Part shown: piece after piece, positions 329 through 13,913 of the stretch
Layout: each line of letters begins with the position of its first letter
Numbering within the stretch: position 1 is the stretch's first letter
NCBI GenBank assembly: GCA_024278935.1
Contig: JAJRSF010000058.1
Location: forward strand, 1 to 43,690
DNA: 43,690 nt
Origin: Candidatus Zixiibacteriota bacterium
Lineage (GTDB): Bacteria; Zixibacteria; MSB-5A5; GN15; FEB-12
Direction: 5' to 3'
The notes under the pieces: model-generated
What the model saw: only the letters and a program-made list of their open reading frames with translations
The model's database searches: none
What the model was told of the DNA's origin: nothing
Position numbers and translations under genes: made by a program

Positions 329-1588
329 TTGGATAAAGCATTAAAATATTTGGCTCGGCTCGGAACAGCATTTTGTCTTATGGCGTTGGTCTGGAGTTGC
401 GCCAGAGTCCCGGGTTTACAGGAAGAAAAAAATGGCGAATATATTCGTATTCCTTTTGTGCGGGTCTTACTCGAAGAAAACAAATCTGAATCGATAATTT
501 CTGCCGAAGGTTCTTTTGCGATTGAATGTCTCAAAGATGGCGAACAGTCGATTTACTATGTTGCCCAACCGGTACGGATTGTCAACCAAGGAACTTTTGT
601 AAAAGTCATTAATTCGAAAAACAATATTATAGCCGAACGTCTTGATGAGATAAATATTCTTCCGAGAGGAAATAATAATAAACTTATCGTGCTTGATAAA
701 AAATATCGTGGCATTATGAAATTTCTCCCCGATGGTGGTAATCTGAAACTGATAAATATTATCTATATGGAAGATTACCTTCGCGGAGTTGTTCCGCCGG
801 AACTAGGCAAACGTAAAGAATCAGAAATTGAAGCAGTCAAAGCTCAGGCAGTTGCTGCCAGAACATATGCGATGGCACATCTCAAACAGTACGCCAACCA
901 ACCATACGACATGAAATCTTCGATTATAGATCAGGTCTACGGTGGTGCATCGGTTGAGCTAAAGCTTGTCAATAGAGCTATCGACGAAACCGCAGGGCAG
1001 GTGCTTTACTCCAACGATAAATATGTGACCGCATATTACCATTCTACTTGTGGTGGAATGACTGACGATATAGAAAAAGTGTGGGAACGAAAAGAATCAC
1101 CATACCTCAAAGCGGTTACCGATGGGGATGCTTGTTCATGGTCAAAGTATTTCAGATGGAAAGAACACTTCACCGAAAAACAACTTCGCAGTAGAATAGA
1201 GCAGTACCTGTCATCTGACCGTGGTCGTGATTTACGAATAGAAAAAATAAAAGATATTAAAATTATTGACCGTACTCCGGGTGGTCGTATAAATCGTTTG
1301 CAGGTTAAAACTGAAAATGATATTTATACGTTTAAAAAAGATCGTATCAGATGGGTCATCGGGAGAACATCAAACCCGGATCTGATCCTTCCATCGGCAA
1401 ATTTTGATGTACAGATAACTCGCACCAATGATGGCTATGTAGAGGCGGTGACTTTCGCAGGCAAAGGCTACGGCCATGGTGTGGGCATGTGCCAGTGCGG
1501 TGCGATTGGTCTCTCTCGTGAGGGATGGACATTTGACAATATTCTCAAGAAGTATTACACTGACGTAGAATTAAAAAAATTATATTAA
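329..1588 (+). CDS. SpoIID/LytB domain protein, probable lipoprotein acting on peptidoglycan
   Basis: The product has 419 residues. It starts at TTG (329), chosen because AAGGA lies 7 nt upstream and no better start precedes the signal sequence. The hydrophobic N-terminus ends in VWSC near residue 24, an imperfect lipobox, so it may be lipid-anchored. The SpoIID domain runs from about residue 148 to the end: YLRGVVPPELG, then EAVKAQAVAARTYA, STCGGMTDD, and the terminal GYGHGVGMCQCGA block near 380. In sporulating bacteria SpoIID is a lytic transglycosylase on denuded glycan strands; LytB relatives enhance amidases. Nothing here indicates sporulation, so a role in cell-wall remodelling is inferred. 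That fits its place between anmK and an OmpA protein, with only 6 nt to the latter. Confidence 0.9.
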   Translation: MDKALKYLARLGTAFCLMALVWSCARVPGLQEEKNGEYIRIPFVRVLLEENKSESIISAEGSFAIECLKDGEQSIYYVAQPVRIVNQGTFVKVINSKNNIIAERLDEINILPRGNNNKLIVLDKKYRGIMKFLPDGGNLKLINIIYMEDYLRGVVPPELGKRKESEIEAVKAQAVAARTYAMAHLKQYANQPYDMKSSIIDQVYGGASVELKLVNRAIDETAGQVLYSNDKYVTAYYHSTCGGMTDDIEKVWERKESPYLKAVTDGDACSWSKYFRWKEHFTEKQLRSRIEQYLSSDRGRDLRIEKIKDIKIIDRTPGGRINRLQVKTENDIYTFKKDRIRWVIGRTSNPDLILPSANFDVQITRTNDGYVEAVTFAGKGYGHGVGMCQCGAIGLSREGWTFDNILKKYYTDVELKKLY

Positions 1589-1594
1589 GAGACT

Positions 1595-3043
1595 ATGAAA
1601 AAACTAATCTACATACTTAGCTTCGTTTTGCTTTTCAGTTCCATTTCGTATGGCTACGACTACACTTATTATGTCGGTTTCCGTGGCGGCTTGTCACATC
1701 CTACTGGAGCGGCTGATGATTCATTGACTATGCCATTTGAAGGTGTTGTTGGTGGGGTCTTAGGTTTTCGTTTATCAAAGAACTATGTTTTTGAGTTCAG
1801 CTATACCGAACATGAAAATTTTAATGACAGTACAAAAAATTCGATGTTTGCCTTTAATGGAAACTTGCTGCATGCGACTCAGTTTTGGGAAGCGTCACGC
1901 TATTCGGTCATGTTTTATAAATCATTAAATAACCCTGATGCAAAACTAAATTTACAATTTGGTCTCGGAACAGGACTTCTCAATTGGGAAGTTCGGGAAC
2001 CGCTTGGCGATACTGTTATAAATGTTACAGGTTTACACAAAGAACAAGTCGATTACGATGCTTCGGAATTATTCTTTAGTTCTGCTTTAGGCATCAATTA
2101 TAATATGTCATCAAAATGGACGCTTTCTACAGATGTCACTTTTGATTATCTGACCGGTGGTGGTGCCGAGTTTGACCCATTGGTAAAGTCTAATCGTAAT
2201 CAATATCAAATGTCTGCTTTTGTCTCGCTCAAATTTTTGTTTGGCGGAGCCAAAAATACAGAATGGACTTCTGACAAAAGCTGGCAGACACCAACACAAG
2301 TAGTTGTTCAAAAAACTAATGGGATAGATTCCGACGGCGATGGAGTCGCTGATTCCAAAGACAGATGTGCTGAAACTGTTCTCGGAGCCTTGGTAGATAA
2401 GCATGGCTGTTCGATAGATTCCGATGGCGATATGGTTCCCGATGGGCTTGACCATTGCCCTGGTACCAGTCGCAATGCCTATGGTTCTATTGATATAAAC
2501 GGCTGTCCGATAGATACAGATTTTGATGGTATCCCTGATTATATGGATAATTGTCCGAGCAATCGAAAAGGTGCTCATGTGGACGCTAGTGGTTGTCCGA
2601 TAGACTCCGATGGTGATTCTGTTCCTGATGGGCTCGATGATTGTCCGAACACATTGTTTGGCGTTGACGTTGACAAAAACGGTTGTATTGATCTTACCAT
2701 GTTATCAAAGACGTTGGTTCTTAATGTTGATTATCTTCCGGGTTCTTTTGAAGTCGACCCTAATAACAGAGAACGCTTAAAAGATTTGTCACGTATACTC
2801 AATTTTGTCAAAGATATAAAGTTAGATATTAATGCCTATACCGATAATATTGGCACGACAGTCGCCAATAAAAAGCTCTCTGAAAAAAGAGCTAGAAGAG
2901 TCTTGGATTATTTAGTCAGCTTAGGGATTTCATCTGATCGTATTAAAGTATTCGGGCTTGGCGAGACGAATTTTATCGCATCAAACAATATTTCGGCAGG
3001 CAGAGCAAAGAACAGACGAATAGAAATCGTATTTTATAAATAG
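1595..3043 (+). CDS. OmpA-family outer-membrane protein with thrombospondin type 3 repeats
   Basis: The product has 482 residues. A signal peptide (about 1-20, ending SISYG) is followed by an N-terminal beta-barrel-like region (about 21-215) rich in alternating aromatic residues. Four to five calcium-binding TSP3 repeats of DSDGDGVADxxDxC type occupy about 245-365. A C-terminal OmpA domain (about 370-482) carries the peptidoglycan-binding signature, seen in LSEKRARRVLDYL and the terminal GRAKNRRIEIV. The protein should span the outer membrane and tether it to the cell wall, like OprF-type porins. It is third in the anmK-SpoIID operon and is followed 12 nt later by a 2H phosphoesterase. The paired cysteines in the TSP3 region could form disulfides. 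Confidence 0.93.
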   Translation: MKKLIYILSFVLLFSSISYGYDYTYYVGFRGGLSHPTGAADDSLTMPFEGVVGGVLGFRLSKNYVFEFSYTEHENFNDSTKNSMFAFNGNLLHATQFWEASRYSVMFYKSLNNPDAKLNLQFGLGTGLLNWEVREPLGDTVINVTGLHKEQVDYDASELFFSSALGINYNMSSKWTLSTDVTFDYLTGGGAEFDPLVKSNRNQYQMSAFVSLKFLFGGAKNTEWTSDKSWQTPTQVVVQKTNGIDSDGDGVADSKDRCAETVLGALVDKHGCSIDSDGDMVPDGLDHCPGTSRNAYGSIDINGCPIDTDFDGIPDYMDNCPSNRKGAHVDASGCPIDSDGDSVPDGLDDCPNTLFGVDVDKNGCIDLTMLSKTLVLNVDYLPGSFEVDPNNRERLKDLSRILNFVKDIKLDINAYTDNIGTTVANKKLSEKRARRVLDYLVSLGISSDRIKVFGLGETNFIASNNISAGRAKNRRIEIVFYK

Positions 3044-3055
3044 AACGGGATATTC

Positions 3056-3607
3056 ATGTCAAAGTTTTCAATTGAAGATGATTTTATAAATCGTAGAAAA
3101 ACAGAATACGCAATAAGCATATATTTACCTTTTGACTTAGACCAGATTACATATCCGTTTCGGAAAAAATATGATCCAATTTATAATCAAGTTGCATCGC
3201 ATATAACTTTGGTTTTTCCATTTTTTACAGAAAAATCACTTGATGAATTATCTGCATTGGTAACTTCGGTTATGAATGCATATAAACCGATACCAATCGA
3301 ACTTGAAAGCATAGGTGATTTTTATCCAAAGACTCCGGTGATATATTGGGTTACAAAAGATAACCAATTGCTCAGAGAGTTATATATAAATTTGTATTCC
3401 AAGCTCGGGATTCCGATTCCACATAAAAATTTTGTTCCACATGTCACTCTAGCCAGAGAGATCTCAACCCATCGGGTCGAACATGTCAAGGATGCGATAG
3501 CGTCGTATCTCCCTAAAGAATCGTTTGAAGCAACTAGTATAGATTTAGTTACTCCACTTGCGAATTTTAAATGGGTTTCAGTCCGAACATTTTCATTTGA
3601 TGAGTAA
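3056..3607 (+). CDS. 2H phosphoesterase superfamily protein (2'-5' RNA ligase / cyclic phosphodiesterase type)
   Basis: The product has 183 residues and no signal peptide, so it is cytoplasmic. The two hallmark HxT motifs are present: SHITL with H49 and T51, and FVPHVTLA with H129 and T131, about 80 residues apart as usual for this superfamily. Family members hydrolyse or form 2',3'-cyclic or 2'-5' phosphodiester bonds in RNA or nucleotides; the substrate here is unknown. It is the last gene of the forward operon that starts upstream of the window, and a strong bidirectional terminator follows directly. Its function has no obvious link to the cell-wall genes before it. Confidence 0.85.
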   Translation: MSKFSIEDDFINRRKTEYAISIYLPFDLDQITYPFRKKYDPIYNQVASHITLVFPFFTEKSLDELSALVTSVMNAYKPIPIELESIGDFYPKTPVIYWVTKDNQLLRELYINLYSKLGIPIPHKNFVPHVTLAREISTHRVEHVKDAIASYLPKESFEATSIDLVTPLANFKWVSVRTFSFDE

Positions 3608-3624
3608 TATTAAATGACAGATAT

Positions 3625-3655
3625 AAAAAAAAGCCCGCTACTGCGGGCTTTTTTT
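3625..3655. terminator. Bidirectional intrinsic terminator
   Basis: AAGCCCGC (3631-3638) pairs perfectly with GCGGGCTT (3643-3650) around a TACT loop. An A run lies before the stem and a T run after it, so the hairpin has a U-tract on either strand. It sits between the ends of the convergent 2H phosphoesterase and truncated hemoglobin genes and probably serves both. Confidence 0.93.
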
Positions 3656-3680
3656 GAGCACTACTTGTAAAGAGAAATAA

Positions 3681-4166
3681 TTATTCTTTTTCTGTGACAA
3701 TATCTGCTTTGGTTGGACCAATTAATGCAAACAATTCGCCTTGTTCTTTTTCAGGAACTTTGAAATCATTTAATAATTGAGAAAATACTTTTACCATTTC
3801 ATCCCATTCCGCATTTGAAATATTGAGATGAGCGTGCGAGTCTTTCATATTGCGACCGTGATACACTTCAGGACCTCCAGTAGCTTGACAAAGCATAGCT
3901 GTTAATCTAAACTTGATCCCGGCTTTTGGAACTTCAGTACGAGCTTGATCAAGTATTGGATTGGCATTTAAAATATCATTAACTTCCAGCCTATCGATAA
4001 GTTCATCAACGACAGAAGCAATGCTATACACGCCACCTAAGCGTTCATACAACGAAGCTTCGGTTTCCTCGGTTGCTTTTTCCTCAGCTATAATAGCTGA
4101 GACTATTAGTAAACTAAAGAGTACTAGCATTACTAATGCGTTACGGATATTAAAACTTTTTCTCAT
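3681..4166 (-). CDS. Exported group 1 truncated hemoglobin
   Basis: The product has 161 residues. A signal peptide (about 1-27, ending AIIAEE) predicts export to the periplasm, whereas textbook group 1 globins are cytoplasmic. The globin domain runs from about residue 38. It has LYERLGG, the CQATGGP segment and GRNMKDSHAHLNIS, in which H111 is the expected proximal heme ligand. The position of the ligand-stabilising B10 tyrosine of mycobacterial trHbN is Ile57 by my alignment. This occurs in a known exported subfamily that also has the ANPxxxxAxxxVPKAG segment seen here. A role in nitric oxide or oxygen chemistry is inferred. A tetraheme cytochrome c follows upstream on the same strand, but each gene has its own promoter and terminator. 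Confidence 0.88.
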   Translation of the reverse strand: MRKSFNIRNALVMLVLFSLLIVSAIIAEEKATEETEASLYERLGGVYSIASVVDELIDRLEVNDILNANPILDQARTEVPKAGIKFRLTAMLCQATGGPEVYHGRNMKDSHAHLNISNAEWDEMVKVFSQLLNDFKVPEKEQGELFALIGPTKADIVTEKE

Positions 4167-4244
4167 TTCATTCCCTTACATTAATATATTAACGATTTAC
4201 CACACTTGTATTAATTTATTGAATTTTTCCTGATATAATAACTT

Positions 4245-4273
4245 AAGATATAATTTCTGACAAACTAAGTCAA
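4245..4273 (-). promoter_or_regulatory. Putative sigma70 promoter of the truncated hemoglobin gene
   Basis: On the minus strand, TTGACT (4268-4273) is followed after 17 nt by TATCTT (4245-4250), about 80 nt before the start codon. The -35 context CTTGACTTAGTT closely resembles that of the cytochrome promoter at 5033-5061 (CTTGACTAAGTT). Confidence 0.5.
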
Positions 4274-4411
4274 GAGTTAATTGGTAATATAAATCCATGA
4301 TTACTTGAATGAAATTTCGGATAATCTACGTATGATAATAAAAGTGAATAGTGAAATTCAGATTGATGAGAGGTAAGTTAAAGACATACAATATAGGTTT
4401 ATCGGAGATAT

Positions 4412-11886: not shown

Positions 11887-13602
11887 ATGTATAAAAGAGT
11901 TGTTAGTACATTTATAACCTTTGTCGCTATCGTTGCACTTGGTGTGTATTGGTCGACGGCGTATCAAACTATCACATGGTGGGATAATAGTTCATACCCG
12001 ATAGCAGCCAACTGTCTTGGGGTAGAGTTGCCGCCCGGTTCGCTTATCCTTACAATCTTGGGATGGATAGTTCTTAAACTTACATTTTTTGATCCAAAAG
12101 TTTTTGCTCTAAACTTGTTTGCAGGTCTGCTTGCTGTTGGAACATTGGTGCAGTTGTTTTATATCGCTCTCTTACTACTGAAAAAAACTTATCCAAAAAA
12201 TAATATTAATACGCTATCTCTTTTAGGTATCAGCTTTGGTGTTTTAATCTTTGCCTTTTCAGAAACATTCTGGACATACGCAATTCAGTTTACGCCGTAT
12301 ATGCTGACTACCTGTATGACGGCGATAATTTTGTATCAACTATTGAGGTTTTGGTTTGAGGACGGTAAGAGTAAAATTATTTATTCTATTCTAATCATAT
12401 CATTTTTAATCGGACTTGATTTTTCAATTCATCGCACCAACGCGTTGTTAGTCCCCGGTTTTATTTGTATGATAATGCTAAAAGATATGAAGCTGTTTTT
12501 GAAATTCAAGTTTTGGCTCTACGGTTGTACCGGTCTAATCGTTGGGCTTGCGGTGCATCTGTTACGAATGCCGATGGCACTTGCGAAGCCGATTATAAAC
12601 ATGAACAATCCCGACAATTTTTCTCGTTTCTATGATTATGTTTCGCTCAAACAATATGGTGGTGGATTTTTAACCGATGTATTCACTCGCAAAGCTCCTA
12701 TTTTTTCAGTGCAGACAATGGACTATCTCAATGTATTCAGAGACAATTTTATTTCTTTAGACTCGCCTCTTGCTCTTGTCAGTCTATGCACAGGACTTTT
12801 CGCACTGGTCGGTACATACTACTTATTTAAAGCGAATAAAAAAACAGGACTTATGCTTGTTATGCTTGTTGTCGTTACAACTGGCATGACAATTTTCTAT
12901 TTTAATATCCAAGAAAACTTTTTTAGAACGTTCACTCGTCATTACCTTCCGTCGTTTGTTATCTTCTCAATTTTTATAAGCTATGGTGCCTCGGTTTTAT
13001 TTACAACTGTTAAAGAGAACACTAAAGTTGTGAAAATTATTCTGATATTCATTTTATTTCTTCTGCCATTAAATCAGGTTCTTCGTAATTATAAAACTCT
13101 TGATTGTAGCTCAGATTCATACGCATCTGATTACGCCAATAATATTTTAGAATCACTTCGTCCTAATGCGATTTTGTTTATCATGGGTGATGTTTATTTC
13201 CCTATTTTGTATATGCAGCAGGTGGAAGGTAAACGAACCGATGTTGACATTCTAAATATTAGTTTGTGTAATACGCAGTGGTATATGCAACAACTGATGT
13301 CCGACCATTACGACCTGCCACTCAGACTAACCGACGATGAGATTTCAAAAATAAGATTTAAGACTTGGGAAGATACAACTTTTGATATCCAATTTGAAGG
13401 TGATATAGATGCCTATCAATTATCGGTTGTAGATTCATCTCTGTCGACACAAATTCATCTGCCTCCTACAAATGCTGGAAAATATATTATGTCACAGGAT
13501 CTGTTTATTCAGAAACTGCTTCATGCAAACCGATGGAAACGTCCTGTCTACTTCACTTATCCATTAAGTTGGTTAAAAAAAATGCACGTCCTGAAGGGTT
13601 AG
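11887..13602 (+). CDS. DUF2723 multi-pass membrane protein, 5' reading frame (interrupted by frameshift)
   Basis: This frame gives 571 residues. It has about ten to eleven hydrophobic segments and the DUF2723 signature near the N-terminus: TITWWDNSSYPIAANCLGVELPPGS, then FSIHRTNALLVPG near 181. DUF2723 proteins are GT-C-fold membrane enzymes related to protein O-mannosyltransferases. The soluble part contains ILFIMGDVYFPILYMQQVEGKRTDV, typical of the family's periplasmic domain. The frame stops at 13600-13602, just after an A8 run. The expected continuation (GLVYQIVP and beyond) is in the -1 frame up to 13913, so the intact product would be about 675 residues. Either the gene is a pseudogene, there is a base error in the homopolymer, or ribosomes or polymerase slip there. 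Confidence 0.8.
   Translation: MYKRVVSTFITFVAIVALGVYWSTAYQTITWWDNSSYPIAANCLGVELPPGSLILTILGWIVLKLTFFDPKVFALNLFAGLLAVGTLVQLFYIALLLLKKTYPKNNINTLSLLGISFGVLIFAFSETFWTYAIQFTPYMLTTCMTAIILYQLLRFWFEDGKSKIIYSILIISFLIGLDFSIHRTNALLVPGFICMIMLKDMKLFLKFKFWLYGCTGLIVGLAVHLLRMPMALAKPIINMNNPDNFSRFYDYVSLKQYGGGFLTDVFTRKAPIFSVQTMDYLNVFRDNFISLDSPLALVSLCTGLFALVGTYYLFKANKKTGLMLVMLVVVTTGMTIFYFNIQENFFRTFTRHYLPSFVIFSIFISYGASVLFTTVKENTKVVKIILIFILFLLPLNQVLRNYKTLDCSSDSYASDYANNILESLRPNAILFIMGDVYFPILYMQQVEGKRTDVDILNISLCNTQWYMQQLMSDHYDLPLRLTDDEISKIRFKTWEDTTFDIQFEGDIDAYQLSVVDSSLSTQIHLPPTNAGKYIMSQDLFIQKLLHANRWKRPVYFTYPLSWLKKMHVLKG
13575..13582 (+). other. A8 slippery run at the DUF2723 frame change
   Basis: In the upstream frame the codons read TTA AAA AAA ATG, giving the heptamer A-AAA-AAA, a classic -1 slippage site. 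Reading then continues as AAT GCA CGT CCT in the downstream frame. One additional A would also restore a single frame. No obvious stimulatory hairpin follows within 30 nt. Confidence 0.7.
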
Positions 13603-13913
13603 TCTATCAGATAGTTCCGCAATTACCGGCTGATCTTAACGTAGAGATTCTGCAGAGGAATTTGATTGAGAATTATTCATATCATGGCTATGCTGAATCA
13701 AATCGACCGCTTGGATTTACATCAATAAGAATCGGTGAAACTCTTTGGAATTCATTTATACAACTGGCGATATATCAAAAACAGATTGGCGATATAGAAT
13801 CATCTCAAGCGACTATCGCATTTGTAAAAGAAAAACTTCCACTTGAAAGAGTCGCCAGCTCGGAGAAGTCAATGGAACGGTTTAAAAGTATTCTCAAAAT
13901 GCTCGCAGAATAA
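13581..13913 (+). pseudogene. DUF2723 membrane protein, 3' reading frame after the shift
   Basis: This is the 110-codon tail of the DUF2723 protein in the -1 frame. It begins after the A8 run with NARPEGLVYQIVPQLPAD, which matches the family's conserved GLxYxLxP turn, and ends with an amphipathic tetratricopeptide-like helix pair (LAIYQKQIGDIESSQATIAF). No ribosome-binding site or convincing start was found for independent translation; an ATG at 13533 lies within the upstream coding frame. Base and codon usage match the first part, which argues that it was coding until recently or still is. Confidence 0.72.

Follow-up and report, generated by a model that had tools for sequence, protein, structure and literature searches.

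A TMEM260-like gene in a Candidatus Zixiibacteriota draft genome is probably split by a consensus error at an eight-A run

Introduction

Programmed -1 frameshifting of the type known from Escherichia coli dnaX uses an A-rich slippery heptamer together with a stimulatory stem-loop and an upstream Shine-Dalgarno-like element. Poly(A) transcriptional slippage, with Thermus dnaX and insertion sequence (IS) elements as examples, is a second route by which an A-run in a gene can give access to another frame (available part of PMC1088944). Broken frames can also be artefacts of sequencing. According to the available sections of PMC9600527, nanopore errors fall in homopolymers and lead to frameshifts, with many broken open reading frames (ORFs) in the absence of short-read polishing; three long-read-led assemblies (Trycycler, Medaka, and Flye) had 124-189 missing or truncated ORFs, and three other assemblies (Polypolish, Pilon, and Unicycler) had 3-5. 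The accessible text of PMC3711429 states that unclustered frame transitions validated by BLASTp are expected to be sequencing errors.

The window analyzed here is a stretch of 43,690 nucleotides from a Candidatus Zixiibacteriota bacterium (assembly GCA_024278935.1, contig JAJRSF010000058.1, positions 1 to 43,690). An initial annotation had noticed a gene in it that changes frame at a run of A and had listed four options: a true pseudogene, a homopolymer sequencing error, phase variation, or programmed slippage making two products. We compared the gene with its relatives and with the background of one-base breaks in the same draft genome and in two sampled drafts of the same genus.

Layout of the split gene

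The 571-codon ORF belongs to the TMEM260-like (PF11028) family, with a profile match of 68.4 bits against a curated cut-off of 24.2 (E = 9.1e-19, residues 37-201); we take DUF2723 to be the older name of PF11028. Its description as a protein O-mannosyltransferase or membrane glycosyltransferase is a prediction, the name coming from Pfam. Relatives in the family genome search share 31-46% identity with it. The layout proposed in the initial annotation was borne out: the frame ends just past the eight A, and the missing tail, containing GLVYQIVP, is intact in the -1 frame (Table 1). The translation of this tail starts NARPEGLVYQIVP and carries RPEGLVYQIVP, and apart from the break it is undamaged, with no additional stop and with matches at E values as low as 1.5e-16. 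A search with the tail by itself found the C terminus of this gene in 13 other genomes, which shows that the tail is truly coding. The short out-of-register end of the first frame, in contrast, has no counterpart among the 26 relatives that span the site.

Table 1. Features of the split gene and of other frame breaks. Positions refer to the window unless they follow a locus handle.
Feature	Position	Strand	Description	Basis
TMEM260-like (PF11028) gene, N-terminal membrane domain and body	11887..13602	+	571 codons and stop	frame 0 ORF
Eight-A run	13575..13582	+	A_AAA_AAA heptamer at 13575-13581, in phase with frame 0	sequence
C-terminal tail of TMEM260-like gene, -1 frame	13581..13913	+	110 codons (13581-13910) and stop	translation
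Out-of-register end of frame 0 ORF	13582..13602	+	six residues and TAG (13600-13602)	translation
TMEM260-like paralogue 1	L031:2002-4736 (G000:C47)		one-base-early frame change	12/12 relatives' protein queries
TMEM260-like paralogue 2	L032:about 1404-4390 (G000:C57)		one-base-early frame change	12/12 relatives' protein queries
accD, only copy	L037:6055-6884 (G000:C15)	-	split in two frames next to an A4 run	
rpoC-like gene	L053 about 8627 (G002:C3)	-	frame change near 3' end	homology scan
RNase R			split gene	domain match 19-158 and 161-708
CheA			split gene	domain match to 492 and from 495
GldE/CorC-like protein			split gene	domain match 3-269 and 278-406
MR_MLE/enolase-like protein			split gene	domain match 14-103 and 118-169
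GmrSD	L122:8024-9609	-	split gene	domain match 1-106 and 145-197
OstA and LptD			probable single split gene	
SelA and SelB			neighbouring genes, not a split	
MsbA and heptosyltransferase			neighbouring genes, not a split	
Two ABC-3 permeases			neighbouring genes, not a split	
Cytidylyltransferase and PolA			neighbouring genes, not a split	

The annotation had also placed the A_AAA_AAA heptamer in position for -1 slippage, and a codon count from 11887 settles that it is in phase. This phase nevertheless tells us little, because any eight-A run shows an in-phase heptamer with a chance of 2 in 3, and 36 of the 47 in-gene A-runs of at least eight in 731 kb of this genome (runs well inside an open frame of 200 codons or more) hold the heptamer in phase while keeping their frame. 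The same was found for the heptamer phase in 61 of 91 such runs across 1,164 kb of the same-genus draft G002. Counted on both strands, the 731 kb contain 120 A8 runs. Since most of the in-gene runs (47 sampled, at least eight A each) keep their frame, whatever error occurred here is not general at A8.

The gene in other genomes

Body and tail were searched separately in 54 genomes of the family, at E values of 1e-60 or better and 0.001 or better, respectively, and stretches with at least 100 N were excluded from the counts. Counting this genome, the body was matched in 25 genomes and the tail in 15. Wherever another genome holds both parts (13 of 13), they adjoin in one open frame, for example of 692, 637, 723, 686, 705, 699, or 720 codons; a fourteenth genome with a tail match (G004) has the tail only, in a frame of 130 codons. 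The junction was then placed on the frames of 27 relatives, leaving out L015, L144, L146, and the paralogue loci L016-L030; one of these stops short of the site, and the other 26 continue through it unbroken. Near the site, no A-run in the 26 is longer than 4 and no run of any base is longer than 5. The A-run and the frame change are both absent from all of them, and we found neither a second product nor a retained motif among them. The comparison with relatives that the initial annotation had proposed as a check therefore came out clearly: the gene is single-frame in its relatives, and the A-run occurs in this record alone.

No close counterpart of the TMEM260-like gene was found in three other genomes of the genus, so the gene is dispensable in the genus. 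A protein search of a collection of genome contigs found no relative of the gene, and a junction search of the same contigs with any gap length from 6 to 14 gave 0 matches in a collection from which the gene's own record may be absent. A literature search under the name DUF2723 found nothing.

One-base breaks across the genome

The draft genome consists of 68 contigs and is 95% complete. We scanned 731 kb of it with a coding-frame hidden Markov model (HMM) under a strict rule, by which the upstream stop lies at least 30 nt past the junction, and obtained 13 candidates; in each of them the downstream frame comes one base early, and none is late. The same rule gave 9 early and 1 late in G002 and 4 and 0 in G003, both same-genus drafts, as candidates without a domain check. 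Domain scans of the 13 identified six cases of one gene in two and one probable case; four are neighbouring genes and two are undecided (Table 1). Breaks in one direction thus occur in unrelated genes, as sought for a consensus error, with 13 of 13 early and six confirmed by domains. One of the six is a GmrSD-type restriction gene (PF03235).

The strict rule favours deletions: of 232 simulated cases of each kind, it recovered 97 deletions and 61 insertions. The 13:0 count thus carries less weight than the figure of 1.2e-4 obtained at 1:1 would suggest; at 0.61 per draw, our own arithmetic puts 13 of 13 early at about 0.002. We regard the one-direction count as suggestive, not overwhelming, and weaker still for the six confirmed genes; gene boundaries account for four of the 13. 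Given the sensitivity to deletions, we estimate 2.0-2.9 breaks per 100 kb, or 0.86-1.29 expected per 43.7-kb window, and a single break in the window is what this background predicts. The strict rule missed all three breaks in TMEM260-like genes, and the HMM at a penalty of -12 left the window's own break uncalled. A relaxed HMM returned 130 raw junctions, mostly gene boundaries. With a looser filter the early and late counts were 26 and 3 in this genome, 26 and 7 in G002, and 13 and 3 in G003; this filter counts ordinary overlaps of 1 and 4 bases between genes as early and is biased in that direction, and the strict counts are preferred for that reason.

A scan by homology found 6 junction sites in 187 kb of this genome, 3 of them in-gene (accD in L037 and the paralogues in L031 and L032), of which two sit in stretches chosen for the paralogues. 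Two sites at L046 were judged to be one gene boundary, and another at about 10027 in L037 was also judged a boundary, as the relaxed HMM assigns it to the opposite strand, where a start and a stop lie close by. The same scan gave 5 sites in 220 kb of G002 and 4 in 100 kb of G003, not each resolved. One of the breaks in G002 lies in a gene that we take from its sequence to be rpoC-like, and that assembly accordingly seems to share the problem.

The accD gene is normally essential, its product being needed for fatty-acid synthesis. This genome has one copy, the third match being a longer and weaker relative of 525 codons, and that sole copy is split, its halves matching 8-195 and 181-279 of TIGR00515 (8-180 and 182-273 in the candidate domain scans). 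A break in a single-copy essential gene is a mark of reading error that we had looked for.

Three genes of this genome match the PF11028 profile, and each of them is split. The proteins of 12 of 12 relatives place the frame changes of the other two near L031:3300 and between L032:1883 and 1964; these breaks lie beside a T5 and a T6/G5 stretch, at sites that differ from that of the window's gene. At the background rate, 0.11-0.17 breaks are expected in these two paralogues jointly, and the probability of two or more is 0.006-0.013, calculated post hoc. Of all the results, only the triple split argues for the enzyme family being genuinely lost or switched.

Explanations for the break

The break is most probably a homopolymer base-calling or assembly error in the draft consensus. 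The gene would be an ordinary single-frame gene in which the register of the consensus is off by one base at the eight-A run, through an error of a kind that appears to recur throughout this genome. We infer that the gene is intact in the living organism and that the break arose in sequencing, not by mutation. Many similar one-base breaks exist in this draft, even in accD, and a reading error is for that reason the most likely origin, ahead of a new control mechanism. Among the four options of the initial annotation, homopolymer error is thus the favoured one, and the only pointer to the pseudogene and phase-variation options is the splitting of all three paralogues. Taken as written, the split frames would truncate the annotated accD, RNase R, and CheA proteins and all three TMEM260-like proteins; a split gene in this assembly or in the two sampled same-genus drafts is therefore weak evidence for recoding or for pseudogenes.

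A real and recent loss of one base, making the gene a young pseudogene or its product a truncated protein without the 110-residue tail, is unlikely, if the best placed of the other readings. The break is present in the sequence as read, the three TMEM260-like genes are split as if a pathway were being lost, and three other genomes of the genus do without a close counterpart; against this, the tail has gathered no other damage, and accD, which should not tolerate such a break, has a similar one.

We give little credence to phase variation, by which slipped-strand mispairing at the A-run would toggle the full-length enzyme within a population. Genes for surface glycosylation are typical phase-variable genes, and the eight-A run is among the longer in-gene runs. 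The part of PMC3711429 available mentions exposed surface proteins in this connection. Eight A is, however, short and common here, the run is absent from all relatives examined, and the split paralogues break elsewhere, at stretches of T or of T and G. Similarly improbable is a combined account of genuine breaks, in which contractions of short runs have turned off all three TMEM260-like genes together, as pathway loss or a crude phase switch, while low-level slippage at the eight-A run still yields some full-length enzyme.

Least probable of all is programmed -1 ribosomal frameshifting or transcriptional slippage at A_AAA_AAA giving a short and a long product, for which the in-phase heptamer is the only support and which we reject because the motif is unconserved, the downstream fold is no better than shuffles, and the in-phase heptamer is common in this genome. 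Three downstream stretches, folded as structures free of pseudoknots, gave z scores of +0.94, +0.58, and +0.76 relative to shuffles, and inspection by eye revealed no Shine-Dalgarno-like stretch in the 35 nt before the run. The available text of PMC3711429 gives about 10% frameshifting for one seven-A test cassette, which makes leakage plausible; some leakage is thus to be expected if the run is real, and it is not evidence of a programmed product. As far as the accessible part of PMC1088944 goes, avoidance of slippage-prone runs in many genomes is put at nine nucleotides.

Comparison with known systems

The locus resembles E. coli dnaX-type -1 frameshifting in its in-phase A-rich heptamer and differs from it in that no stem-loop, upstream Shine-Dalgarno-like element, or conservation was found. 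With poly(A) transcriptional slippage it shares an A-run in a gene beyond which a second frame continues, but the run has eight A, compared with the surveyed runs of nine in the available part of PMC1088944, and it is unconserved. The PF11028 match and the homologous C-terminal tail are those of TMEM260-like membrane proteins, and unlike in its relatives the frame is broken in this record only. Although some breaks in this genome lie by short runs (A4 and T5), the locus shares with the homopolymer indel artefacts of long-read or low-accuracy drafts, as described in the accessible sections of PMC9600527, a one-base change of register at a homopolymer and same-direction breaks in many unrelated genes, one of them essential.
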